A stretch of 30,163 nt of DNA from a virus. A program made the translations under genes and the position numbers. Shown here piece by piece: positions 1 to 24,664 of the stretch. Where the stretch lies: IMG/VR virus record IMGVR_UViG_3300031951_014867, positions 1-30,163 of that record; one strand, written 5' to 3'. The notes under the pieces were generated by a model. The model saw only the letters and a list, made by a program, of their open reading frames with translations, was not told the DNA's origin and searched no databases. Position 1 is the first letter of the stretch. Each line of letters starts with the position of its first letter.

Positions 1-870
1 TTCTTATATCAATACTGGAAAGAAATCCCAAAAACACTTAAATACTATTTGTCGGTTGCTGCGGTAATATTAATGGTTATTACGTCTGCTGGTATCTACG
101 GATACCTTTCATCTGCCTATGCAAAGGTGTCTGCAACTCCATTAGCGTTGAATGCAGACATCCAAACAGTTCAAGGAAGAGTGGGTAGTCTAGAACAAGA
201 TATTAAACGTAAAGAAGATCGTCTTAATCAATTAATAACATTACGATCTCAACAAGAAACCCGTTTGGATAATATGGTATCTAAGTCCACAACAGGAAAC
301 AGTTCGACTATTCGTACGGCACAAAACGCATTAAATCAAGCAGACAGAAATGTTACGGCATTACAAAAAGAAATCTCTAACCTTTCAGCACAGCGAGATA
401 GCCTCAATGGAATCAGTATTAGCAAACGTGTGGAAATTGAAACAAACGGTGATGTTGGCACTTTCATCTATATTGCAAAAGTACTGGGCACTGACCTTGA
501 TACGGTGGTCAAATGGTTCACGCTCGTCATTGTATTAGTTTTTGATCCGTTAGCGGTAGCATTAGTAATTGCAGTTAATTTTCTCATAAAAAATGCAACC
601 CTCGTGTCTAGTAAACCTTCATATAAAATACAAAATGATAATACCGAAGTGTTTACCGTAGAAGATACCGAGCCATATGAAATGTATTATAAAGAAAATA
701 ATATAGATGAAAATGTTATAGAAATGGAAAGTTTACATCTAGCCCAAGAGGCAGCAGATCCTCAATATTATGCTAGAGGTGATTTTGACTGGTCTAATGA
801 ACTTATGTGGAAATACAACCCAAAAGCAATAGAATATTATAACAGAGAAATTCTTCCAAGAAAACAGTAA
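1..870 (+). CDS. Membrane-anchored coiled-coil protein, 5' end outside window
   Basis: The reading frame is open from base 1, and the visible part encodes 289 residues, so the true start lies upstream. A TTG at 49 would be an internal start and is unlikely, because good coding sequence (FLYQYWKEIPKTLKYY) precedes it. Counting from base 1, a first hydrophobic segment lies at about residues 18-38. It is followed by a long Gln/Lys/Glu/Leu-rich coiled coil at about 50-140, and a second hydrophobic segment at about 171-196 (starting WFTLVIVLVFDPLAV). The tail after that is polar and acidic. This layout suggests a membrane protein with a coiled coil between two membrane passes. I do not recognise a named family and assign no function. 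It may be expressed with upstream genes that are not visible. A 61-base gap follows it. Confidence 0.75.
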   Translation, partial: FLYQYWKEIPKTLKYYLSVAAVILMVITSAGIYGYLSSAYAKVSATPLALNADIQTVQGRVGSLEQDIKRKEDRLNQLITLRSQQETRLDNMVSKSTTGNSSTIRTAQNALNQADRNVTALQKEISNLSAQRDSLNGISISKRVEIETNGDVGTFIYIAKVLGTDLDTVVKWFTLVIVLVFDPLAVALVIAVNFLIKNATLVSSKPSYKIQNDNTEVFTVEDTEPYEMYYKENNIDENVIEMESLHLAQEAADPQYYARGDFDWSNELMWKYNPKAIEYYNREILPRKQ

Positions 871-874
871 ACTA

Positions 875-903
875 TTGACAAACTATCAGTAATAGGTTAG
901 ATT
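875..903 (+). promoter_or_regulatory. Candidate sigma70-type promoter ahead of the uvdE cassette
   Basis: The gap between the membrane protein and the UV endonuclease holds a perfect TTGACA at 875-880. Seventeen bases later is TAGATT at 898-903, a 4-of-6 match to TATAAT. Spacing and position fit a host-polymerase promoter for the downstream genes, with a start near 910. This is a pattern match only. The sequence is AT-rich, so a chance hit is possible. Confidence 0.45.
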
Positions 904-931
904 TATTGTATCTCAACAAACGGTTATATAT

Positions 932-1831
932 ATGCCACATAATGTTGGTTATTGTTGTATTAACATGACGTTGAACAAACAAAAAATTACTACTGGGCGT
1001 GGTATGATTCAACGTACCTTCAAAGAAAAGGGGTTGAACTATGCGTCTGAACTTGCCCTTGCTAATGCACGTGATCTTGTAAAAATCTTACAATGGAATG
1101 CCGATAATAACATCACGGTATTCCGAATGGGGTCGGGTATTTTCCCGTGGGGTACGGAGTATGATCTGTACGACCTTCCGCACATCAACGAAATTGCACG
1201 AACACTGGCAAATGCCGGTATTCTTGCCACATCCACAAAGCAACGTGTCACGGCACACCCTGATCACTTTGTCAAATTGGGATCGGAAAAGGAATCCGTT
1301 GTACTTAATTCTATCAAAGATTTAGAACTACATTCTAAAGTTTTTGATATGATGGGACTGAGCAATACACCATACAACGCACTCAATATCCATGTCGGTA
1401 TGAATTTTTCTCAAGACACGGCGTACCGATGGATTGCAAATTATCATAGACTGTCTAAAAACTGTCAATCACGGTTGGTAGTAGAAAATGACGACAAAGA
1501 GAAGGCATTTTCTGTACGCCAACTCTATCATTATTTACACAACGTAATTAATATTCCAATTACATTTGATTATTTCCATCATCAATTTCATCCTGATGGA
1601 TGGGATTCAAAAGATGCTGCTAAAATAGCAGCAGGTACATGGCCAGAAGGAATTAAACCACTTTTCCATTACAGCGAGAGTAAAAATATCAATGAGAACG
1701 TATCGGGAAATCCTCGGGCACATGCTGATTATGTGTTTAATGTACTTGATGATTACGGTCTTGACATAGACGTTGATCTAGAAGCAAAAGCAAAAGAACT
1801 TGCCCTCTTCAAATACAGGAGTTTAACGTGA
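932..1831 (+). CDS. uvsE: UV damage endonuclease (UvdE/UvsE family)
   Basis: This 299-residue protein looks like a full-length UvdE, a TIM-barrel metal-dependent endonuclease that nicks DNA 5' of UV photoproducts and starts an alternative excision repair. Visible motifs in order are the N-terminal VGYCCIN (5-11), FRMGSGIFPWG (64-74, the R-S-S-x-x-F-P-like element), AHPDHFVKLGS (108-118), LNIHVGM (151-157), VVENDD (183-188), TFDYFHHQFHP (211-221), PLFHYSES (243-250) and HADYV (264-268). The many His, Asp and Glu residues in these motifs match the family's three-metal centre. The ATG at 932 is chosen because the conserved GYCC strand starts only five residues in; the ATG at 965 would remove it. 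No clear Shine-Dalgarno is visible. The stop overlaps the start of the glycosyltransferase gene, so the two are probably co-translated. In a phage it would repair the phage's own sunlight-damaged DNA (inference). Confidence 0.9.
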   Translation: MPHNVGYCCINMTLNKQKITTGRGMIQRTFKEKGLNYASELALANARDLVKILQWNADNNITVFRMGSGIFPWGTEYDLYDLPHINEIARTLANAGILATSTKQRVTAHPDHFVKLGSEKESVVLNSIKDLELHSKVFDMMGLSNTPYNALNIHVGMNFSQDTAYRWIANYHRLSKNCQSRLVVENDDKEKAFSVRQLYHYLHNVINIPITFDYFHHQFHPDGWDSKDAAKIAAGTWPEGIKPLFHYSESKNINENVSGNPRAHADYVFNVLDDYGLDIDVDLEAKAKELALFKYRSLT

Positions 1832-2457
1832 TGATTAGTTTCGCCGTAACTACACATAACGAAGGACAGTATATTCAAGATCTATTGGATCAACTGGTAC
1901 CATATTGTGAAAAAACAGGTGATGAAATTGTCGTAGTAGACGATAATTCTACAGATCCATTTACTGTAAATGTTTTAGAGGGATATGAACGTTCCAATTC
2001 TATTAAGTTGCACAACCATGCACTGAATAATAATTTTGCGGCACATAAAAACTTTTTGGCAGAACAATGTAAAGGTGATTATATTTTTCAAGTAGATGCT
2101 GACGAAACATTTCATCCCAACCTTTTAACCTATCTTCACGACATTGTTGACAACAATACCAATATTGATCTGTTTCTTATTCCTCGTGTTAATGTGGTCA
2201 ATGGACTAGTAGACGAAGATATCAAACGTTGGCGATGGCAGGTAAACGAACACGGGTGGGTCATGTTCCCAGATTATCAAACTCGTTTGTATAAGAGCCA
2301 CGTTGATATTCGTTGGGAAGGGGTAGTTCACGAACGTATTGTCGGGTTCAAAACAATGGCCCCGCTCCCAGCCGAAGAAGAATGGTCGTTATATCACATT
2401 AAAGATATTGATCGGCAACGTAAACAGAACGATTATTACGCAACTATTCAGAGGTAA
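1831..2457 (+). CDS. Family 2 (GT-A) glycosyltransferase
   Basis: The protein has about 208 residues and starts with the Rossmann-like strand typical of GT2 enzymes, ISFAVTTHNEGQYIQDLL. The nucleotide-binding EIVVVDDNSTD follows, and then a DxD-type metal/nucleotide-sugar motif in FQVDADETFHP. The C-terminal part, with QTRLYKSHVDIRWEGVVHE, resembles the acceptor side of small GT2 proteins. The family transfers a sugar from a nucleotide-sugar donor; the acceptor here is unknown (DNA base, capsid protein or host envelope). The ATG at 1831 overlaps the upstream TGA, and a GTG at 1828 is also possible. AGGAG at 1817-1821 could serve either. The downstream gene starts 2 bases after the stop. It has no membrane segment, so it should be cytoplasmic. 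Confidence 0.85.
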   Translation: MISFAVTTHNEGQYIQDLLDQLVPYCEKTGDEIVVVDDNSTDPFTVNVLEGYERSNSIKLHNHALNNNFAAHKNFLAEQCKGDYIFQVDADETFHPNLLTYLHDIVDNNTNIDLFLIPRVNVVNGLVDEDIKRWRWQVNEHGWVMFPDYQTRLYKSHVDIRWEGVVHERIVGFKTMAPLPAEEEWSLYHIKDIDRQRKQNDYYATIQR

Positions 2458-2459
2458 TC

Positions 2460-3488
2460 ATGAGAGGACAAGCATTAACATATGACGATATTACACTCAT
2501 ACCACGATATAGTGAAATTGAAAGCCGTCAAAAAATTGACCTTACAACTCAATTAACAACTAATTATAGTATTGGGGTTCCGTTGATTGCTTCTCCAATG
2601 GATACTGTGTGTGATTCCGAAATGGCTATTGCTATGGCAGAATTGGGTGGCGTGGGATGTATTCATCGTTTCAATACTATTACGGAACAGATGAATGAAG
2701 TTATGTTAGTGACGAAAAAACTACATACTTTTTTTCTGATGCAATCCCAAGTAATTCCCGTTATGGCGGCAATCGGAGCAAATGGTGATTATTTAGAACG
2801 GGCACACGCCCTTGTTTCTGCTGGAGCAAACGTTATATTAATTGACGTAGCACACGGACATCACAAATTTGTTAAAGAAGCAATCAACACGTTAAAATAT
2901 CAGTTACCGTCACACGTAGATATTATTGCTGGAAATGTTGCAACTGCCCACGCCGCAGCAGATCTTGTTGAGTGGGGGGCAGACGCAATTCGGGTGGGGA
3001 TTGGTGGAGGATCGCTGTGTACCACTCGGATCAAAACAGGGTTTGGTGTCCCAAATGTTATGTCATTAGAACGTTGCGCCAGTGAGGTTACGGTTCCAAT
3101 CATTGCGTGTGGTGGTATTCGGAACAGTGGAGACATTGCAAAGGCATTAGCAGTTGGCGCAAGTTCGGTTATTCTGGGATCACTTCTTGCAGGAACCAAA
3201 GAAGCGCCTGGAGCAATCATTGAGAAGTCAAATGGGTTATATAAGAGATATCGTGGGGCTGCTTCATTGGAGACGAAGACGGTTCACGGTCAAGCTACTC
3301 GAAATGTGGAAGGCGAGTCTACTATCGTTCCGTTCAAGGGTAGCGTGAAATTCGTTGTGGAGGGGTTGTTGGATGGCTTGCGGTCTGCATTATCCTATGC
3401 CGGAGCAAACAATCTAACGGAGTTCAATCCAGACTATGTACAAGTCACAAACGCCGGAATGAACGAGGCCCGTCCCCACCTTCTGTGA
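2460..3488 (+). CDS. IMP dehydrogenase/GMP reductase family enzyme lacking CBS domains
   Basis: This 342-residue TIM-barrel protein belongs to the IMPDH/GMPR family. It has the N-terminal LTYDDITLIPRYS (6-18), PLIASPMDTV (41-50), the nucleotide loop GIGGGSLCTTR (180-190) with the catalytic cysteine at 187, IIACGGIRNSGDIAKAL (214-230), and VEGLLDGLRSALSYAGA (300-316). Usual IMPDHs are near 490 residues with two CBS domains inserted after the early barrel strands; none are present here. The C-terminus VTNAGMNEARPH is IMPDH-like, while the overall length resembles GMP reductase. The flap region (about 268-293) is short and lacks an evident Arg-Tyr pair, so the reaction (IMP to XMP, or GMP to IMP) is not certain. 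AGAGG at 2448-2452 is a good ribosome site. The gene would act on guanine nucleotide supply during infection (inference). Confidence 0.85.
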   Translation: MRGQALTYDDITLIPRYSEIESRQKIDLTTQLTTNYSIGVPLIASPMDTVCDSEMAIAMAELGGVGCIHRFNTITEQMNEVMLVTKKLHTFFLMQSQVIPVMAAIGANGDYLERAHALVSAGANVILIDVAHGHHKFVKEAINTLKYQLPSHVDIIAGNVATAHAAADLVEWGADAIRVGIGGGSLCTTRIKTGFGVPNVMSLERCASEVTVPIIACGGIRNSGDIAKALAVGASSVILGSLLAGTKEAPGAIIEKSNGLYKRYRGAASLETKTVHGQATRNVEGESTIVPFKGSVKFVVEGLLDGLRSALSYAGANNLTEFNPDYVQVTNAGMNEARPHLL

Positions 3489-3495
3489 GGAATTT

Positions 3496-4020
3496 ATGAA
3501 AAAACTTATTTTGGTACTTGTAATTTTAATTACGTCTGTGTATATTGTTGATAGACTTCCAAATGTTACGGTTACACCGATTCCAAAGTCTAAACCTACG
3601 CCGGTTGAAATGTTTATGGATCGCATTGCGTCAATTGAGACACCGGGCGGAACCCATAGAACAGTCAATCAGTTCGGTATGATGGGACGTTATCAGTTTA
3701 GTCCATCTACCGTTCGGGTTTTAGGATTTCGAGTAACGCAACATCAGTTTTTAAACAACCGACAGATCCAAGATACCGTGATGTTACGATATATGAAGGT
3801 CAATCATCGTGAATTGTCATGGTATATTCGTCGGTATAGTGGAAAAGTAGTGAATGGGGTCAAAATTACCCGTGCAGGTATCCTTGCCGGAGCGCATTTT
3901 GCGGGAAGTGAGGGGGTAAAAGCATTTTTCCGTACCGGAAGTAACAGAACTGATGCAAATGGAACGTCGGTAGCAAAATATATGTCAAAATTTAGTAATT
4001 TCCACCTACCAGAGATCTAA
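3496..4020 (+). CDS. Membrane-anchored lysozyme/transglycosylase-like protein
   Basis: The protein has 174 residues. Residues 1-18 (MKKLILVLVILITSVYIV) form a signal anchor or uncleaved signal peptide, and a Pro/Thr-rich spacer follows. The rest resembles lytic-transglycosylase/lysozyme-like domains of phages: MDRIASIETPGG (41-52, Glu48 a candidate catalytic acid), MMGRYQFSPSTVRVLG (62-77), where YQFxPST is a family hallmark, and ILAGAHFAGSEGVKAFF (129-145) near the C-terminus. It would cut peptidoglycan from the periplasmic side, at lysis or at DNA entry. GAGGAA just upstream is the ribosome site. Its stop shares one base with the next start (TAATG). The specific reaction is inferred from family resemblance only. 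Confidence 0.7.
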   Translation: MKKLILVLVILITSVYIVDRLPNVTVTPIPKSKPTPVEMFMDRIASIETPGGTHRTVNQFGMMGRYQFSPSTVRVLGFRVTQHQFLNNRQIQDTVMLRYMKVNHRELSWYIRRYSGKVVNGVKITRAGILAGAHFAGSEGVKAFFRTGSNRTDANGTSVAKYMSKFSNFHLPEI

Positions 4021-4292
4021 TGATAATCGTTATTACAATTTTAGGTATACTAAACATAGGGTTAGGGTATGCAACCTATAATCTACTGAAAAAATTAGAA
4101 ATTTATGAAAAAAGTATAGAGGAATTCTATACTTCATTGTCTTTTGTACTCCATACGATGAGAACATTAGACGAAAAACAAATGTTTGAATCAGATGACG
4201 AAGTGGGGACGGTATTTAGGCAAATGTCCGACATACTGTTCACGCTTCGTCCAATAATTTATGGAAAGGAGCAAAATGAAGAAAAAGACTGA
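4020..4292 (+). CDS. Small membrane protein, unknown function
   Basis: The product has 90 residues, with one N-terminal transmembrane segment (IIVITILGILNIGLGYATYNLL) and a cytoplasmic-looking helical tail rich in charged residues that contains FESDDEVGTVFRQMSDI. The start ATG uses the last A of the upstream stop. Its 3' end overlaps the sigma-factor gene by 17 bases when that gene starts at 4276, so these genes are probably translationally linked. My recollection, not checked, is that similar short proteins with an E-S-D-D-E-V motif occur near late-gene regulators in marine T4-like phages. I do not assign a function. Confidence 0.7.
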   Translation: MIIVITILGILNIGLGYATYNLLKKLEIYEKSIEEFYTSLSFVLHTMRTLDEKQMFESDDEVGTVFRQMSDILFTLRPIIYGKEQNEEKD

Positions 4293-5040
4293 CCTAGAAA
4301 TTCGTCGTGCCAAGCTGGGTAAGGTATATTTCACCCAAGATACGGAACGAGCAATTGTAGAATACAATAAATCTTCCGATCAAGAGGAAAGAGATCAAAT
4401 ATTTAGAGAACGAATACACGCACCAATTGATAAATTAGCAGAAAATATAATTAATAGATTTAAATTTCCTTATATAGATGGAAATTTTGAAGATATTAAG
4501 AATCAGGTAGTATCATTTCTAGTACTTAATTTACACAAGTTTACGGAAGATAAAGGTAAGGCATTTTCATATTTTTCTGTGGTAGCAAAAAACTATTTAG
4601 TATTACACAACAATAATTCGTATCGTGATGAATTGCGATCAACTTACATAGTAGATTCGTCAACCGACGAGTCGTATTTATTGGAGGAAGTACTAACAAC
4701 AAAACCAGAAGTTGAATCTTCTCACAAAGATACTAGTGATTTTGTAGAATTGTTAATTCAATATTGGGATTTTAATTTAGATAGAATTTTTAGGAAAAAA
4801 AGAGACAAGGAAATAGCAAATGCTGTAATAGAATTAATGAAACGCGCAAACACAATAGAAAATTTCAATAAAAAAGCACTATACGTACTAATTCGTGAAA
4901 TGACCAACAATAAAACGGTTCATATCACGAAAGTTATTAATAAGATGAAAGTACATGTTTTGGAACAAATGAAAGAATATCGCCGGTCAGGATATTTATC
5001 AGATCCATCCATGCTTTTTGTCTATAATCAAGAAAAATAA
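4276..5040 (+). CDS. 55: Late-transcription sigma factor, T4 gp55-like
   Basis: The protein has about 254 residues. The central part, with ERIHAPIDKLAENIINRF followed by IKNQVVSFLVLNLHKFT and GKAFSYFSVVAKNYLVLHNN, matches the sigma region 2-like core of T4 gp55, the phage sigma factor that directs host RNA polymerase to late promoters. It is longer than T4 gp55 (185 residues); the extra length is a C-terminal basic helical region ending in PSMLFVYNQEK. The ATG at 4276 is preferred over the in-frame ATG at 4261 because AAGGAG lies at 4265-4270, between the two. It is AT-rich and overlaps the preceding gene. It sits next to the baseplate genes that it would be expected to switch on. A TATTTAT-type promoter candidate follows it directly. 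Confidence 0.75.
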   Translation: MKKKTDLEIRRAKLGKVYFTQDTERAIVEYNKSSDQEERDQIFRERIHAPIDKLAENIINRFKFPYIDGNFEDIKNQVVSFLVLNLHKFTEDKGKAFSYFSVVAKNYLVLHNNNSYRDELRSTYIVDSSTDESYLLEEVLTTKPEVESSHKDTSDFVELLIQYWDFNLDRIFRKKRDKEIANAVIELMKRANTIENFNKKALYVLIREMTNNKTVHITKVINKMKVHVLEQMKEYRRSGYLSDPSMLFVYNQEK

Positions 5041-12833: not shown

Positions 12834-15647
12834 ATGGCAATTTTTCCATTTGGATTCAACGACGAACAATATATAAACTCACAAATTACGCCATCCGACG
12901 AGGACACACAGGTCGGTTCAGGAGCCGGTACTGGTATAGGTGGAGGAACGGGAATTCGTAGACCAATTCTTGACAATGAAGATACAACTAGTACTATAAC
13001 TGACAGTACAGGAACCGGAACTGGTACTGGAACTGGTACTGGAACAGAAACCGGAACTGGTACTGGAACAGGAACCGGCACTGGTACTGGAACAGGAACC
13101 GGAACCGGCACTGGTACTGGAACTGGTACTGGTACTGGAACAACCACGGTAAATAGAGGTTGTCAAGCAGATGATGAATGTCCACGGGGATTTTACTGTG
13201 ATTTTACAACAACTACCGTAATTGGTGATGATTTAACTAACCAATACGGATCATGTAAACAAACTCCGACTGAGGGTACTGGAACCGGCACTGGTACCGG
13301 AACCGGCACTGGTACCGGAACCGGCACTGGTACCGGAACCGGCACTGGCAGAACTGGTACTGGGGGAGAGGGAGAAAAAATTGCTTGTTGTGGCCCAATT
13401 ACGGAATACAAATGTGTGCGAGGGTTTGCTGGTCCAGATTGTCCTCGTGGAAGTGGTGAATGTACACCAGGTGAAGACTGCGGTGCTCCTCCCAAATGTG
13501 ATACCACAGTAAAAACAACAGCTTGTTCTAAAATATTAGGTGACGAATTTAGTGGAGTTGCGGTACAAACGATATCAATTGAAGGTAGTCCCGCAGGTTG
13601 CGTTGCAGCAGCAGCAAGTGATTGGAACACTGACGATTGTCAAAAAATAGATACAAATACACCATGTAATACGGTTACCGAAACCGTGTCGTGTACAACC
13701 CTTATAAATGATGGTAAAACGTATTCTGGAAGTGCATCTAGAATAATATTAAAAACTATAAACGGACAACCAACACCTTCCGGGTGTACTATACCTGATA
13801 CTTCCAGTGACTGGGACACTTCTGGCTGTAGAGTAGTGGCAACCGAGGAATGCGAAACCACAACACAAACTATAGCTTGTACAAATATCGGAGCCAACTA
13901 TGTTGCGGGAACGGCAACTAGAACCGTACTTAGGAAAATAGATGGAAACAATACGCCTCGTGGGTGTAGTGCACCAACTGGTTTATCAAGTGACTGGGAT
14001 GTTAGAAACTGTATAATAAAAGAAGATGACCCGCCCGACAATCGTCCACGAATATGTGGCAGTACAACCAGAGTACCTCTTGAATCGTTGGCATTATACA
14101 CCGAGTCAACGGACGCTGCGGGTGAGTGCCTGGTTAGACGACAATATAGACTGTGTGGAACTTCAGAAAGTTCATTAGGCATTCCACCTGCCAACTTAGT
14201 ACTTAGTAGTGATAATCTGGGTGCCTGTTACGGACCACCTCAACCACGATATAGAATTTGTGGCTCTACAAATGAAATTGAAGGGACGCCACCAAGTTCT
14301 CTTGAAGAGGGACAGGATCAACGGGGCGTTTGTTATAGAACACCCATAACCCATCGTATCTGCGGAAATCCAGACGCGCAGAGTGGATATGCACCAGAAG
14401 GATACAGACAATCAACCGATCAATATGCAGGAACTTGTTATAGAGCACCTGAGTTTTGGCGACTGTGCGGAACAACGGAACGTCGAGAAGACCAAGTTCC
14501 ATCTGGATATGAACAGTTCTCAGATAATTCTGGAGCTTGTTATGGTCCATATTTTACTTATTGTAATTCTCCCGATATTAAAAATTTAGGAACAAGACCA
14601 TCTGACGATAGATATGAGTTTGATACTCAACGATTCTGCTGGAAAGAAAAGGTTATAATTCCGCCACCAGAAGAAGTATGTGAATGTCATGTTGCATCTG
14701 GATATAACGGTACCGTAACGTATGTACCGTGTGGTGGAACGGTTCAACAATACACTACTATACAGCTTGTTGGTGTTGATGTTGGTTTTTGTGCAAGTGA
14801 TAAATATGCAGTTCTTTCCAATGGTGGAACAGTAGTTAAAAACCTAAATACAAATTGTAAAAATAAGCAATCAGTTTGTATAATAACACCGCCACCGGAC
14901 CCAGAATATCGTATATGTGAAACTCGTGCAATAGTAAAGGGAACTCCGCCTGCAGACTTTGTTCAATCTACTGATAGATTTGAGGGAGTATGCTATAGAC
15001 GTAACGTAATTGAAGAAAAAACATATCGTATATGTGGAGAACCTGCGTTATTAAAAGGAACACCGCCTGCAGAATTAATTGAATCGCGAGATCAATATCC
15101 TGGCGTTTGTTATAAACCACGAGAAATTCCAATAACACATCGTATTTGTGGCGATCCACAGTTACGTAGTGGTGATCCACCAGAAAATTATGTACAAGAT
15201 TCTGACCAATATGGCGTGTGTTTCAAGCCAGAACCAGAATGGCGTAGTTGTGTCGATGGTAAAGTATATAAGGGATTACCACCTGCTGAGTACAAGCAAC
15301 TAGTATACCCAGGACCAGTCGGTGGAGTATGTTGGGAACCTGCAAGTATAGTCGGCTTTGAACCAAGTTTAGCAAATGCATTTAACTTTTTATACAAACG
15401 TGGTAGTGGAGATTATCCAACTGCTGTCCGAGCAACGGCAACTAACCCATCATATGCAGCTTCATATAGGGTTACTATGAACACAAACAGTAAAATAAAA
15501 CTAAATAATGGTGACGGTACTCTACAATTTTTACTACAACCGCGAAGTTCGTACGAATTTACAGTAAATGTTACTCCTGAATTATATGAACAACTTGGTG
15601 ATGGATCTAGTAATCTATCACTTGACGTTGATATAACTGAATTATAA
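12834..15647 (+). CDS. Thr-Gly repeat, cysteine-repeat tail protein (candidate adhesin)
   Basis: This is a 937-residue mosaic. Residues 1-58 are a polar head, perhaps an attachment site. Residues 59-103 and about 148-176 are Thr-Gly dipeptide tracts. Between them is a small Cys module ([15 protein letters not shown] ... YGSC). After the second tract is a Cys-rich segment (about 183-222), then three repeats of about 55 residues with pattern T-x-x-x-A/S-C ... G-x-P-x-G-C ... SDWD/N ... C (about 222-396). About nine repeats of 30-40 residues follow, built on R-I-C-G ... G-x-P-P ... D-x-x-G-x-C-Y (about 405-606 and 690-836), then a beta-rich C-terminal domain (839-937). There is no signal peptide. 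The many paired cysteines and flexible linkers suggest a stable extracellular binding protein on the virion. Its place among baseplate genes supports a peripheral fibre or receptor-binding role (inference). Confidence 0.8.
13008..13142 (+). repeat. Degenerate Thr-Gly coding repeat, tract 1
   Basis: About 135 bases of ACNGGN hexamers encode alternating Thr and Gly, broken once by a Glu codon near 13047. Codons for the two residues vary (act, aca, acc; ggt, gga, ggc), so this tract is older or more diverged than tract 2. The minus-strand reading gives a false Pro-Val frame. Confidence 0.9.
13281..13352 (+). repeat. 18-bp minisatellite, Thr-Gly tract 2
   Basis: The unit GGAACCGGCACTGGTACC occurs at 13281-13298, 13299-13316 and 13317-13334 without change. 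A fourth copy at 13335-13352 differs only in its last bases. Exact identity suggests recent expansion by slippage or recombination. Unit length is a multiple of three, so copy-number change keeps the frame and alters only linker length. Confidence 0.92.
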
Positions 15648-15648
15648 C

Positions 15649-16158
15649 ATGCCAATACGAAATTATGTTACGGGTGATGTTCCCTACTTAACTTCATATG
15701 AACCGTTTACGTTACCGAATGGCATAACGCAAGTGGACTTCATAAGTCAAATGATTTCGTATAATTTACAACCGTTAAAAACTCCAACCGAAATAACATA
15801 TTTTATTGGTGCAGAAAATTCTTATGTTACAACGTTAGAAATAAAAAATTTGACGGATAATGTAACATTGACTGGAACTATAACGTTTAACAAAGACGTA
15901 TTTGTTATATACGACGAATTTAATAGATATATAGACGGAATAGATAGAGTAGAGTTTTCCTTAGAACCAGAAAAAATTGAATCATTTAAGATTGAAGTTA
16001 ATAAAAAAATATTGAACAGTGTAATTTTAAATACACCACTTAATACGTTGATTAATATCACTATCAAAAATGTTACGACAAACGGATTAACGCTCAAAAA
16101 AATAAATCAATCTTCTTTGGCAGAAAGCACGTTCCCACAAAATATAACCGTAAAATAA
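15649..16158 (+). CDS. Probable tail protein, beta-rich, unknown function
   Basis: The product has 169 residues. It starts one base after the repeat-protein stop. The C-terminal 110 residues look like an immunoglobulin-like beta sandwich, with alternating strands such as YVTTLEIKNLTDNVTLTGTI and VEFSLEPEKIESFKIEVNK. The pattern (a N-x-T segment, a strand, then a 'L-x-P-x-x-x-x-x-F-x-V' strand) resembles the last 95 residues of the upstream 937-residue protein, which may mean a shared domain. There are no cysteines. Position suggests a structural role. Confidence 0.6.
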   Translation: MPIRNYVTGDVPYLTSYEPFTLPNGITQVDFISQMISYNLQPLKTPTEITYFIGAENSYVTTLEIKNLTDNVTLTGTITFNKDVFVIYDEFNRYIDGIDRVEFSLEPEKIESFKIEVNKKILNSVILNTPLNTLINITIKNVTTNGLTLKKINQSSLAESTFPQNITVK

Positions 16159-21577: not shown

Positions 21578-22765
21578 ATGAGTATTTATAATCAATTTAC
21601 AGACGACGATCTAGTATCAGCAAATCCTACAGTAGTCACAACAGGATTATGGTCTGGAGATACAGGATCGTTAGCATCAACCCTATGGCTAGGTACGGCG
21701 GCTGGTCAACAAGTACCGATTAGCGGTGAATATTATTTAGACGTATTTGATAAACGTCCTGATACCGACCCAACTGCGGAAGTACAATTTTCTGTAACCT
21801 ATGGTCACATAAATGGCGGTGGTTCGCCGACGTTAGACGATAATGATCTGTCCACATTGTCAACGCAGGCAATTTATAGTCAATATAGAAATTTATTATT
21901 GGACCCATCGGATACAAAATTTACATTTAACAATGTAGAATCTGACCACATTTTTGTAATTAATTTTCAACGTTCTAGAATAAGAGAGCAACTGGATCCT
22001 GGTAACTGGGAACTCCCATTGTCAGGAACAAAGGGTATTAGTACATTCATCGATGATAGTGGTCAAACATTAGGTGCATTGACAGCAAACAGTAAGGCCG
22101 GTCGTGTGTTTAATGTTGTGTCTGGAGCACTGGACATATTAACGGGTTCAGTAGTACATAGTTCTGGTTCTACCAACGGTGGTGGATACGGATTGATATA
22201 TCCCGATCTCGGTATTATTGTATTAAACCCAAATGCAATTGGTCCTACGGTTGGATTTGTAGCAACGGGGTCATCAAACGAGGGTAGCGGTTCAGCGAAT
22301 ATTACGGTTACAACACCATTTTATTCAAGTACTGATTTTAATACCGGCACAACTAGCGTAACGGCAGTATATGCACCTGTAACACACTCTGCGGTCGTTT
22401 GGGGTACTAAAAAATCTGCGTATAACCATACAGCACTATTTAATTCAATAAAAGGCGCCACTGCAGCAACAGGTACTCCTTCGGGTTCTGCATTTAAAGC
22501 ACGTTCGGCAGAAACCATTTCTTCTACACACTATTTTGTACGTCTTAGAAATAAGGAATTCAATTATTCAAACAACCCCACGTTCTATAATCCAGATACG
22601 GGAGTACTAACCAATCCAGATTTCCGTAATGATCCGCGAGTATACGTCACTACAGTGGGATTGTATAATAGTCAGAACGAATTACTCGCCGTTGCAAAGT
22701 TGAGTAAGCCGGTGCGGAAGAGCTTCGATGAGGAAGTTTTGTTGAGGGTAAGATTAGATTTTTGA
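21578..22765 (+). CDS. Virion structural protein, paralogue 1
   Basis: The product has 395 residues, beta-rich with Gly/Ser/Thr loops. The C-terminus YVTTVGLYNSQNELLAVAKL ... RKSFDEEVLLRVRLDF closely matches the C-terminus of the protein at 23732 (YITTVGLYNEQYELLAVAKL ... QRSFDINQIFIIRFDT). The middle also aligns: LDPGNWEL with a following FIDDSG, and YPDLGIIVL, compare IKPGTFEI, VDDEVG and YDSGIAVV. The two are therefore related along most of their length. AGGAAGA precedes the ATG. It is probably a tail or capsid decoration protein; I do not know which. Confidence 0.7.
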   Translation: MSIYNQFTDDDLVSANPTVVTTGLWSGDTGSLASTLWLGTAAGQQVPISGEYYLDVFDKRPDTDPTAEVQFSVTYGHINGGGSPTLDDNDLSTLSTQAIYSQYRNLLLDPSDTKFTFNNVESDHIFVINFQRSRIREQLDPGNWELPLSGTKGISTFIDDSGQTLGALTANSKAGRVFNVVSGALDILTGSVVHSSGSTNGGGYGLIYPDLGIIVLNPNAIGPTVGFVATGSSNEGSGSANITVTTPFYSSTDFNTGTTSVTAVYAPVTHSAVVWGTKKSAYNHTALFNSIKGATAATGTPSGSAFKARSAETISSTHYFVRLRNKEFNYSNNPTFYNPDTGVLTNPDFRNDPRVYVTTVGLYNSQNELLAVAKLSKPVRKSFDEEVLLRVRLDF

Positions 22766-22844: not shown

Positions 22845-23735
22845 ATGACTACACCTGAGCAAAAAGAACGTTATAAACTAAAAGCACGAGAAAAAAGAGC
22901 AAAATTACGTAAACAAACCGATTCTGATATAACTTGTAGACTATGTAATTTATCAATAAATCCGAAAGGGATGTCTATACATGTGAAAAATGTACATACG
23001 TTAGAATTTACCGTATATTTAGATCAATATCTATCCGATTTTTCTGCGCTTGGTTGGATACAATGTTCCGTATGTAAAAAAATTACCAAAGGTACAACTT
23101 GTTCAAGAAAGTGCATGGGCGTATTATACAAAGAAACTTATAGTGGACGAGAACCGTGGAATAAAAATTTAACTAAAGAAACCAACGAAAGTTTACGACA
23201 AATGGGCCAATCCATAAGTAAACGCAACACAGGTAACCCAAAAATAATGGGAACAAACAATCCAGCCAAACGAACGGAAGTTCGTGAAAAAATTTCAAAA
23301 ACACGAATAGAACGTGGTGTTGCAAAAGGTCACAACAATCCCATGTTCGGAAAAGCGCACACCGAAGAAGCATTGAGAAAAATTTTTGATAAACGTTCCA
23401 TGACTAGACCGGAACAGCAACTCAAAGAAATTTTAGAAGAATTGCATATTACTTATAAATCACAATTTTTTATTAACACGGGTGACCGCACTTTTTCGTA
23501 CGACTTCTACCTACCAGATCATAATATTATCATTGAGGTTGATGGGGATTATTGGCATGGCGGACCAGGAGTATCAAAATATTGGCATGGCGTAGAAGTC
23601 ACCAAAGAAACGGATATTCTGAAAGATAGTGTTGCTCAAGAACGTGGATATACTATAATTCGTTTATGGGAAAGTCAACTAAATACTGACAAAAAACTAA
23701 TTATTGATATACTTCAATCCGTACTACACACATGA
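22845..23735 (+). CDS. Free-standing homing endonuclease (zinc fingers, NUMOD3, Vsr-like nuclease)
   Basis: The product has 296 residues. Domains in order: a basic N-terminus; a C2H2-like finger (C31, C34, H46, H51); a second Cys cluster (C74, C77, C86, C90); NUMOD3-like DNA-binding repeats (about 102-182), with GNPKIMGTNNPAKRTEVREK and GHNNPMFGKAHTEEALRKI; and a Vsr/EDxHD-type PD-(D/E)XK nuclease (about 186-290), with RPEQQLKEIL, FSYDFYLPDHNIIIEVDGDYW (D220, E231, D233) and AQERGYTIIRLWESQL. This is the architecture of selfish phage homing endonucleases, which cut alleles lacking the gene and spread by repair. It lies between two paralogous structural genes. Its TGA overlaps the next ATG (ATGA), so the downstream gene depends on it for translation. 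A strong hairpin upstream probably limits its expression. It is not inside an intron: the gene before it is complete. Confidence 0.88.
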   Translation: MTTPEQKERYKLKAREKRAKLRKQTDSDITCRLCNLSINPKGMSIHVKNVHTLEFTVYLDQYLSDFSALGWIQCSVCKKITKGTTCSRKCMGVLYKETYSGREPWNKNLTKETNESLRQMGQSISKRNTGNPKIMGTNNPAKRTEVREKISKTRIERGVAKGHNNPMFGKAHTEEALRKIFDKRSMTRPEQQLKEILEELHITYKSQFFINTGDRTFSYDFYLPDHNIIIEVDGDYWHGGPGVSKYWHGVEVTKETDILKDSVAQERGYTIIRLWESQLNTDKKLIIDILQSVLHT

Positions 23736-24664
23736 AAACATTTGGTACACTTGACGCAAAAGATTACAACGTAGAAGAAATGTATACATCTGCGCCTATG
23801 TCGTGGGAGTTAGTTTCTTCTTCAAACGGTGTTCAAGTAACTTCCCCCGCCGATTTGGTAGGAGCAGTAATGGTACAGCGGGCAAGTAATGATTACACAA
23901 ATTATTATTATACGAATAATCCTAAACTAAATACTGATTCTGGAACATACGAATATATTTTATATAGATCAATTAAACACGTATTTTATAATGGTCGGTA
24001 TTTTTATAGTGGATCCGTATTACAAACGTCTAGTTTAGCTGGATTACCCAACGATTTTTACGTAATAAGTGTTGGGCAAGACTTCTATGGCAATCGTATA
24101 AAGCCAGGAACATTTGAAATATCCACTGAAATTGCCAATAAAACTATTGTAGACGACGAAGTGGGTAATTTATATATTAGTCAGTCGGGCGTGGGTACGT
24201 ACGTCGGTAATGTATTTTATGATTCAGGGATAGCAGTTGTAAAAATGGACACTGGATCTGTAGTGACGGCAATGTCTAGCGGGGGATTAAAATTAGTACA
24301 AGATTCGGAACTTTATGTAGATTATAGTAGTGACGTTAAATATCATCGCCACGAAGTAAACATAAAAATAGATCGTTCTGAATTTAATTTTTCACCATTC
24401 AATCCTTCAATATTTTCCACATATACGGCAACCACCGGTAGTGTAACGCAGTCATGGAATGACTTAAATATTAGGTCGTCTGCAAGTAGTCCAGATACGT
24501 GGAATATGTATAATTTAATGGGAGCGGGTGTAGTTAACCCGTATATTACCACGGTTGGATTGTATAACGAACAGTATGAACTATTAGCAGTTGCCAAATT
24601 AGTACAACCGATTCAACGTTCTTTTGATATTAACCAGATATTTATTATTAGGTTTGATACCTAA
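23732..24664 (+). CDS. Virion structural protein, paralogue 2
   Basis: The product has 310 residues. It is related to the 395-residue product encoded at 21578, most clearly in the last 40 residues (ITTVGLYNEQYELLAVAKL), and is shorter mainly in the middle. It starts MKTFGTLDAKDYNVEEMY and is rich in Tyr, Ser and Val. No Shine-Dalgarno precedes its ATG, which overlaps the endonuclease stop, so it now seems to rely on translational coupling or on reinitiation. A structural role is inferred from the paralogue and the location. No frameshift is seen, so it should be functional. Confidence 0.7.
   Translation: MKTFGTLDAKDYNVEEMYTSAPMSWELVSSSNGVQVTSPADLVGAVMVQRASNDYTNYYYTNNPKLNTDSGTYEYILYRSIKHVFYNGRYFYSGSVLQTSSLAGLPNDFYVISVGQDFYGNRIKPGTFEISTEIANKTIVDDEVGNLYISQSGVGTYVGNVFYDSGIAVVKMDTGSVVTAMSSGGLKLVQDSELYVDYSSDVKYHRHEVNIKIDRSEFNFSPFNPSIFSTYTATTGSVTQSWNDLNIRSSASSPDTWNMYNLMGAGVVNPYITTVGLYNEQYELLAVAKLVQPIQRSFDINQIFIIRFDT

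Follow-up and report, generated by a model that had tools for sequence, protein, structure and literature searches.

A conserved UvdE–glycosyltransferase cassette with a putative GMP reductase-type enzyme in a freshwater T4-like phage lineage

Phages remodel the pyrimidine pool through dCMP deaminase and thymidylate synthase, and in Z-phages PurZ does so for purines. We analysed a stretch of 30,163 bases from an IMG/VR virus record (IMGVR_UViG_3300031951_014867; hereafter the window), which is a piece of a T4-like freshwater phage genome, and focused on three packed genes for a UV damage endonuclease (UvdE), a glycosyltransferase (GT) and a member of the IMP dehydrogenase (IMPDH)/GMP reductase (GMPR) family. 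One freshwater T4-like phage lineage has the trio in a fixed arrangement, with the GMPR gene as a piece gained and lost. We hold it slightly more probable than an even chance that this cassette, with a GMP-reductase-like third enzyme and together with PurA, forms a GMP-IMP-AMP branch for AT-rich genomes.

Several described systems resemble the third protein. Type 2 GMP reductases (PDB 1ypf; phages 42E and G) share with it a short flap with NVEG, the catalytic Cys, a KTG loop and the lack of a CBS domain, and 1ypf and the 42E protein are closely related (583.7 bits, residues 3-324); the window protein, however, is 35-38% identical to this type, has a barrel nearer to IMPDH, and carries Cys for Asp and Ile for Met. 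Bacterial GuaB has the same fold and 38-44% identity over the catalytic domains listed, whereas the window protein lacks the CBS domain and the Arg-Tyr dyad and has a short flap. Short dyad-less homologues from Chitinophagaceae and other Bacteroidota (mostly metagenome-assembled genomes) share the flap type and 60-70% identity, but all 26 (of 27) in which the motif was read keep the Asp, and they lie in ordinary bacterial surroundings, for example next to genes resembling pdhA and recF (by eye) in L279.

Among phages, S-2L and phiVC8 likewise encode a purine monophosphate enzyme and leave the next step to host enzymes. Their PurZ has Ser13, whereas the PurA of the present lineage has Asp13 and GTP-type residues, and 2-aminoadenine synthesis was judged on these residues alone. 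The family members annotated as GMP reductase or dehydrogenase in Cr30, XacN1 and RAS14 differ from the window protein in identity (30-32%) and neighbours, and all three keep the Asp. GMP reductase is mentioned for pelagimyophages in the available text of PMC7029224, and sporadic UvdE is on record for jumbo phages, the available description in PMC7824862 containing no GT or GMPR cassette.

The window holds three intact open reading frames on the + strand:

932..1831, + strand: UV damage endonuclease UvdE/UvsE, 299 aa (PF03851, E 1.6e-52; TIGR00629)
1828..2457, + strand: GT-A family 2 glycosyltransferase, 209 aa, or 208 aa from the ATG at 1831 (PF00535, E 6.9e-18)
2460..3488, + strand: predicted GMP-reductase-type member of the IMPDH/GMPR family, 342 aa, without a CBS domain (PF00478, E 4.5e-104)

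The overlap between UvdE and GT is 4 bases long if GT begins at GTG 1828 and a single base if it begins at ATG 1831, and 2 bases separate GT from the third gene. UvdE scored 175.5 bits against TIGR00629 (cut-off 124.45), and its AHP, NIHVG, VENDD, FDYFHH and FHYSE motifs align with the conserved His, Glu and Asp residues of solved UV endonucleases, which we take to be metal ligands. GT scored 65.6 bits against PF00535 (gathering score 23.3) and contains VDADE, a DXD-type motif (by eye); its matches to solved family 2 enzymes were weak (best 1e-8). The original prediction of a tightly packed set of accessory enzymes, foreign to the T4 core and including one connected with guanine nucleotides, was thus confirmed. 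It had also placed the genes behind one promoter candidate; such a site exists at 875-903 (+ strand, TTGACA-17-TAGATT, 10/12), but it is weak evidence, because a scan of 700-4300 returned 19 promoter-like sites on both strands, only modestly above the 11.1 (standard deviation 3.4) in shuffled sequence.

Enzyme type of the third protein

We compared the third protein with IMPDH and GMP reductases at the residues that separate the two enzymes. IMPDH has a long flap with an Arg-Tyr dyad that hydrolyses the covalent intermediate. In GMP reductases, according to the available text of PMC2525682, the dyad is missing and the flap truncated, with Thr321 and Glu431 conserved. The corresponding features in the window are:

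3018..3026, + strand: catalytic Cys187 and CTT loop with Thr189, equivalents of T. foetus Cys319 and Thr321
3249..3314, + strand: short flap Y264-G285 without the Arg-Tyr dyad (alignment count)

The results showed that Cys187 and Thr189 are invariant in all 12 aligned sequences, as in GMP reductases, and that Glu284, the counterpart of T. foetus Glu431, is kept beside a truncated flap. Measured from YRG to EG, the flap is 22 residues long. E. coli GuaB has 32 residues here, including DRYF in the alignment, whereas the window protein has no equivalent of the Arg418-Tyr419 dyad; the flaps of the two reductases compared, E. coli GuaC and that of phage 42E, count 25 and 18 residues. The predicted structure had a mean pLDDT of 80 and a pTM of 0.82, with values below 50 at residues 1-3, 188-196 and 267-286. 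The protein departed from GMP reductases at the ADGG/SDGG motif, whose Asp is replaced by Cys217.

Bacterial relatives were consistent with this picture. A scan of genome contigs with the third protein gave 70 loci, 27 of which (L255-L281) were of Chitinophagaceae type, 60-70% identical to it; the flap was read in 26 of these 27 (all but L281), and none of the 26 had the dyad. A dyad-bearing PF00478 protein accompanied the short dyad-less homologue in 10 of 11 Chitinophagaceae-type genomes, and one (G037) had the short protein only. The simplest reading of this pairing is a division of labour in which the short protein would be the reductase.

Other comparisons weighed against a reductase. The top eleven PDB sequence matches were all IMPDH (best 253.8 bits), with entries named GMP reductase close behind (6lk4, 239.5 bits; 6jig, 235 bits), and all 50 Foldseek matches listed were IMPDH/GuaB; overall, the barrel stands closer to IMPDH than to GMPR. 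The protein reached 285.8 bits against the IMPDH model TIGR01302, below its cut-off of 481.5 and with the CBS part absent, and it also stayed below the NCBIfam cut-offs for GMPR (best NF003966, 241.8 versus 344 bits). For that reason we describe it as working like a GMP reductase and assign it to no named equivalog.

We therefore weighed a true IMP dehydrogenase, which would make XMP from IMP and raise GTP, with Thr-Glu water activation replacing the Arg-Tyr dyad. The sequence matches, the 38-44% identity of the barrel to the catalytic domains of bacterial and other IMPDHs among the structural matches, and the Thr321 route proposed for some hydrolysis once Arg418 is lost (available text of PMC2525682) favour such an enzyme. 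Against it stand the short flap without a dyad in those homologues, from phages and Chitinophagaceae-type bacteria, in which this part was read, the separate dyad-bearing IMPDH that the bacteria retain, and the accompanying PurA, which would compete for IMP. On balance we regard an IMP dehydrogenase as improbable. The IMPDH name given to the gene in the original prediction was accordingly abandoned: the enzyme is probably of GMP-reductase type and no IMPDH. Phage 'IMPDH' annotations may likewise give the direction of flux wrongly.

Conservation of the trio and association with PurA

To cover relatives of the trio, viral contigs were searched with the third protein (73 loci) and with its alignment (best 80 of 362, 23 of them new), which gave 96 contigs for the third gene, typed according to whether Cys or Asp stands in the ADGG motif. 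There were 64 Cys-type contigs (58 typed by pattern and 6 read afterwards), 31 of Asp type, and one (L073) too short to include residue 217. Searches with UvdE and GT returned 73 and 44 loci, respectively. The window itself had one weak near-neighbour DNA match among phage records. The 53.7-kb contig G010 contains exact copies, all at one offset, of eight of ten 60-mers taken from the window (those from base 1 to 21,001) and ends before the other two; it therefore supplies about 30 kb upstream of the window from the same phage type.

All 42 Cys-type contigs that extend 2.5 kb or more upstream of the third gene (38 pattern-typed and 4 of the 6 read later) have UvdE there, no further than 4.5 kb away, and GT, no further than 1.5 kb away, so the trio is no chance assembly. 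By contrast, among 28 Asp-type contigs with the same upstream length, 3 had both partners, 2 had UvdE only, 1 had GT only and 22 had neither. Starting from UvdE, 44 of the 73 loci had both GT and GMPR, 12 kept GT and the lysozyme-like gene without GMPR, 1 had GMPR without GT, 13 had neither partner and 3 were cut off; starting from GT, GMPR lay downstream in 36 of 44 loci. Independent occurrence of the genes in relatives, which the original prediction had named, along with unmodified virion DNA, as what would speak against it, was therefore seen for UvdE-GT, for UvdE and for the Asp-type third gene, but not for the Cys-type gene, which keeps both partners.

The borders of the cassette were as follows:

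49..870, + strand: coiled-coil membrane protein, C-terminal part; upstream border marker, outside the function of the cassette
3496..4020, + strand: lysozyme/baseplate-hub-like protein; downstream border (phrog_27932, 4.4e-10)

The coiled-coil gene was found 5' of UvdE in most Cys-type loci reaching that far, and the lysozyme/hub-like gene was next after the third gene in 56 of 56 pattern-typed Cys contigs with at least 800 bases downstream. In single contigs, inserts occupied the UvdE-GT gap (L005:3604-5372, about 1.8 kb; L124:6891-9526, about 2.6 kb), and another contig had about 0.8 kb inserted in the cassette (L041:5135-5980). The GMPR frame was broken or shortened in L118:7498-8572 and L116:7323-8192, which reflects either assembly error or decay; their close relatives L117 and L119 are intact.

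PurA (PF00709) was detected in 6 of the 13 contigs of Cys type and in none of the others searched (10 of Asp type, 2 without GMPR and 1 with UvdE only). Three further Cys-type contigs (of L026, L053 and L119) also carried it, nine in total, and it lay upstream of UvdE by 5.9 kb (L381), 6.8 kb (L384) and 7.8 kb (L380). Six lineage PurAs were aligned, and all keep Asp13, Arg303, Lys331 and Asp333. Asp13 was present in 8 of 8 aligned homologues and in all 80 loci of a PurA-alignment scan of viral contigs (best 80 of at least 435). A PurZ was ruled out for the lineage by these four residues: the available text of PMC12884076 gives Ser or Gly at the position of PurA Asp13 as the mark of PurZ, and that of PMC8342488 adds further residue criteria.

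The same best 80 of at least 435 loci, with up to 8 kb read on each side and at least 6.5 kb downstream in 61 of them, revealed other combinations. UvdE occurred with a GuaC-type GMP reductase in 17 loci and a GuaC-type reductase alone in 2, all 19 of these reductases keeping the Asp; UvdE alone occurred in 11, seven times 91-92 bases after PurA, and two of the 11 (L380 and L384) are Cys-type contigs with GMPR further along. One locus had UvdE with a window-type gene and one had another family member. After clustering PurA at 90% identity, UvdE with a GuaC-type gene remained in 8 of 42 clusters; kinship and a common insertion region may inflate all these counts. Another search found a PF00478 member on 8 of the 17 long contigs with PurA that it covered. 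A 317-kb phage has a family member of 41% identity at 3.3 kb from its PurA, and a search of three further PurA contigs with the window protein found none. One GuaC-type phage has between PurA and UvdE a SGG-type PP-loop protein with C-x7-C-x2-C-x2-C, QueC-like by eye (L393:10954-11511).

Not all of the distribution favours a purine branch. GMPR is dispensable, since the 12 UvdE contigs described above keep UvdE-GT without it. PurA was not found in 7 of 13 Cys-type contigs, including G010, G006 (92.8 kb) and G001 (145.8 kb), records that are possibly fragments: that of G001 ends on both sides of the region that holds PurA in G003. Likewise, 48 of the 80 PurA loci had neither UvdE nor GMPR in the stretch examined, although these include L376, L378, L386, L387 and L390, whose contigs carry a Cys-type GMPR further off.

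A second explanation is accessory cargo in an insertion hot spot, in which the genes would have separate benefits and their adjacency would mark a tolerated site by the baseplate block. Each gene is found without the others, the site accepts other inserts, as the two UvdE-GT gaps show, and the coiled-coil gene, UvdE and PurA occur in the same region of several phages. However, every Cys-type contig with enough upstream sequence retains both partners, and UvdE, PurA and GMPR reunite in other phages with a GMPR of a different subfamily. We consider cargo unlikely, while giving it some weight.

Proposed purine branch and the modification alternative

The favoured purine branch would operate from a conserved cassette located between the membrane-protein gene and the baseplate block. 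Cys187 would attack guanine C2, ammonia would leave, and NAD(P)H would reduce the intermediate to IMP; the reaction, its direction and the cofactor are inferred. XMP production is not expected from a flap without the hydrolase dyad. In PurA-bearing phages of the lineage, PurA of the Asp type would couple aspartate to IMP using GTP. PurB family members were absent from all 22 phage records searched, so the host would have to supply PurB, which would then release AMP. The putative net benefit would be a drain of guanine nucleotides into adenine nucleotides during infection, fitting a genome of about 39% GC. The pyrimidine side would be handled by dCMP deaminase, ThyX and dUTPase, which are present in G003, the longest relative (166.6 kb, 39.5% GC); dCMP deaminase was found in 2 of 13 Cys-type contigs. 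UvdE would nick UV lesions independently and GT would transfer a presumed sugar to some acceptor; no chemical link of either to GMPR is shown. If correct, the GMPR-PurA pair would represent a plain guanine-to-adenine branch, here with two GMPR subfamilies. No description of such a phage branch was found in the literature searched, with subscription papers outside its coverage.

The original prediction had also raised DNA or surface modification, in which guanine-nucleotide metabolism and sugar transfer would serve a modified base or a glycan. The thymidylate synthase/dCMP hydroxymethylase family PF00303 was absent from 13 of 13 Cys-type contigs, and T4-style hydroxymethylcytosine glucosylation was ruled out on this basis. 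Mom-family proteins (PF25680) were detected in 3 of the 13 Cys-type contigs, far from the trio, with a weak match in the Asp-type G021:

G003, 105835-106461: Mom-family protein
G001, 15220-15837: Mom-family protein
G002, 146777-147430: Mom-family protein
G002, 138892-139473: Mom-family protein, with stops

These genes suggest adenine modification of the DNA of those phages. In G003, far from the trio, PurA is surrounded by genes for glycosyltransferases, a GDP-mannose dehydratase family protein, a cupin resembling mannose-6-phosphate isomerase and a fusion of HAD and nucleotidyltransferase parts. In Microcystis phage Mel-JY01 (L188:7974-15393), a GuaB-like gene lies immediately 5' of a gene run with several annotated glycosyltransferases. 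The Mel-JY01 arrangement and the G003 genes, Mom included, would fit a modification cassette. However, GMPR would use up guanine nucleotides and supply no GDP-sugar, GT remains with UvdE where GMPR is missing, nothing links GT to DNA, and Mom is confined to the few contigs above. Modification chemistry is present in these phages, yet outside the trio, and modification by the trio itself appears very improbable, the least probable of the explanations weighed.

Residues 217 and 238 and further observations

Two codons distinguish the third gene of the lineage:

3108..3110, + strand: Cys217 codon (TGT), in place of the Asp of the ADGG motif
3171..3173, + strand: Ile238 codon, where relatives have Met

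From 205 open reading frame entries, 186 had at least the 300 aa and start motif required, and once duplicates were removed 89 different proteins remained, 45 of them from Cys-type phages, 19 from Asp-type phages and 25 from bacteria. Position 217 was Cys in 45 of 45 lineage proteins and Asp in 44 of 44 relatives, and position 238 was Ile and Met in the same proportions; these were the sole columns fixed for differing residues between the two groups. Cys217 was encoded by TGT in 39 and TGC in 6, and the change from Asp requires two base changes. In a tree on 347 columns, both trait columns included, all 45 Cys-type proteins fell on a single branch (99/89) beside L044 and L049, Asp-type genes already located with UvdE. 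The median dN/dS was 0.14 (207 pairs among the 45 sequences, dS 0.05-1.2), and the Cys-type gene is under purifying selection. This lineage-wide fixed swap is a new observation.

In T. brucei IMPDH, Asp358, Gly360 and Gly381 bind the ribose and phosphate of IMP according to a figure legend of PMC6992785, and the role of the family Asp rests on that legend because a literature search on Asp364 and ribose found nothing. The spacing from Cys217 to Gly240 equals that from Asp358 to Gly381 (23 residues), and residues 214-217 and 236-239 form successive strands in the predicted structure. Loss of the carboxylate at 217 may permit tolerance of 2'-deoxynucleotides, for example dGMP as a substrate.

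A further, rather doubtful proposal is that the Asp217Cys/Met238Ile pair turns GMP reductase into a 2'-deoxy-GMP reductase, so that dGMP from degraded host DNA would become dIMP and then dAMP via PurA and host PurB. Against it, lineage PurA retains Arg303, which in E. coli PurA balances the ribose O2' of IMP (available text of PMC8342488). If true, the deoxy-reductase would be the purine counterpart of dCMP deaminase, making A:T phage DNA straight from G:C host DNA. Fixed loss of a ribose-binding Asp in a selected gene offers a sharp and cheap test for a shift from ribo- to deoxynucleotides in a viral purine enzyme.

Three Asp-type phages carry a fractured GMPR gene:

L071:6001-7530, L072:4898-6427 and L069:4906-6477: GMPR fractured by an apparent split intein (reading frames)

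The first open reading frame ends in an intein N-half after GIGGG; about 90-110 bases on, the second begins with an intein C-half followed by SLCTTR, adjoining the catalytic Cys. An intron was rejected, since Rfam found only tRNAs in L069 and L071 and the frames look like split-intein halves. The insertion site is presumably of the same kind as that of the published IMPDH-1 split intein, and fractured genes were reportedly described by Dassa in 2009.

A tRNA scan of the window found none. Elsewhere in the window, 12834-15647 encodes a big tail-region protein with long Thr-Gly repeats, which become Val-Pro repeats if the opposite strand is read. A putative endonuclease-like gene (22845-23735, by eye) lies between tail proteins at 21578-22765 and 23732-24664, whose C-termini are alike.

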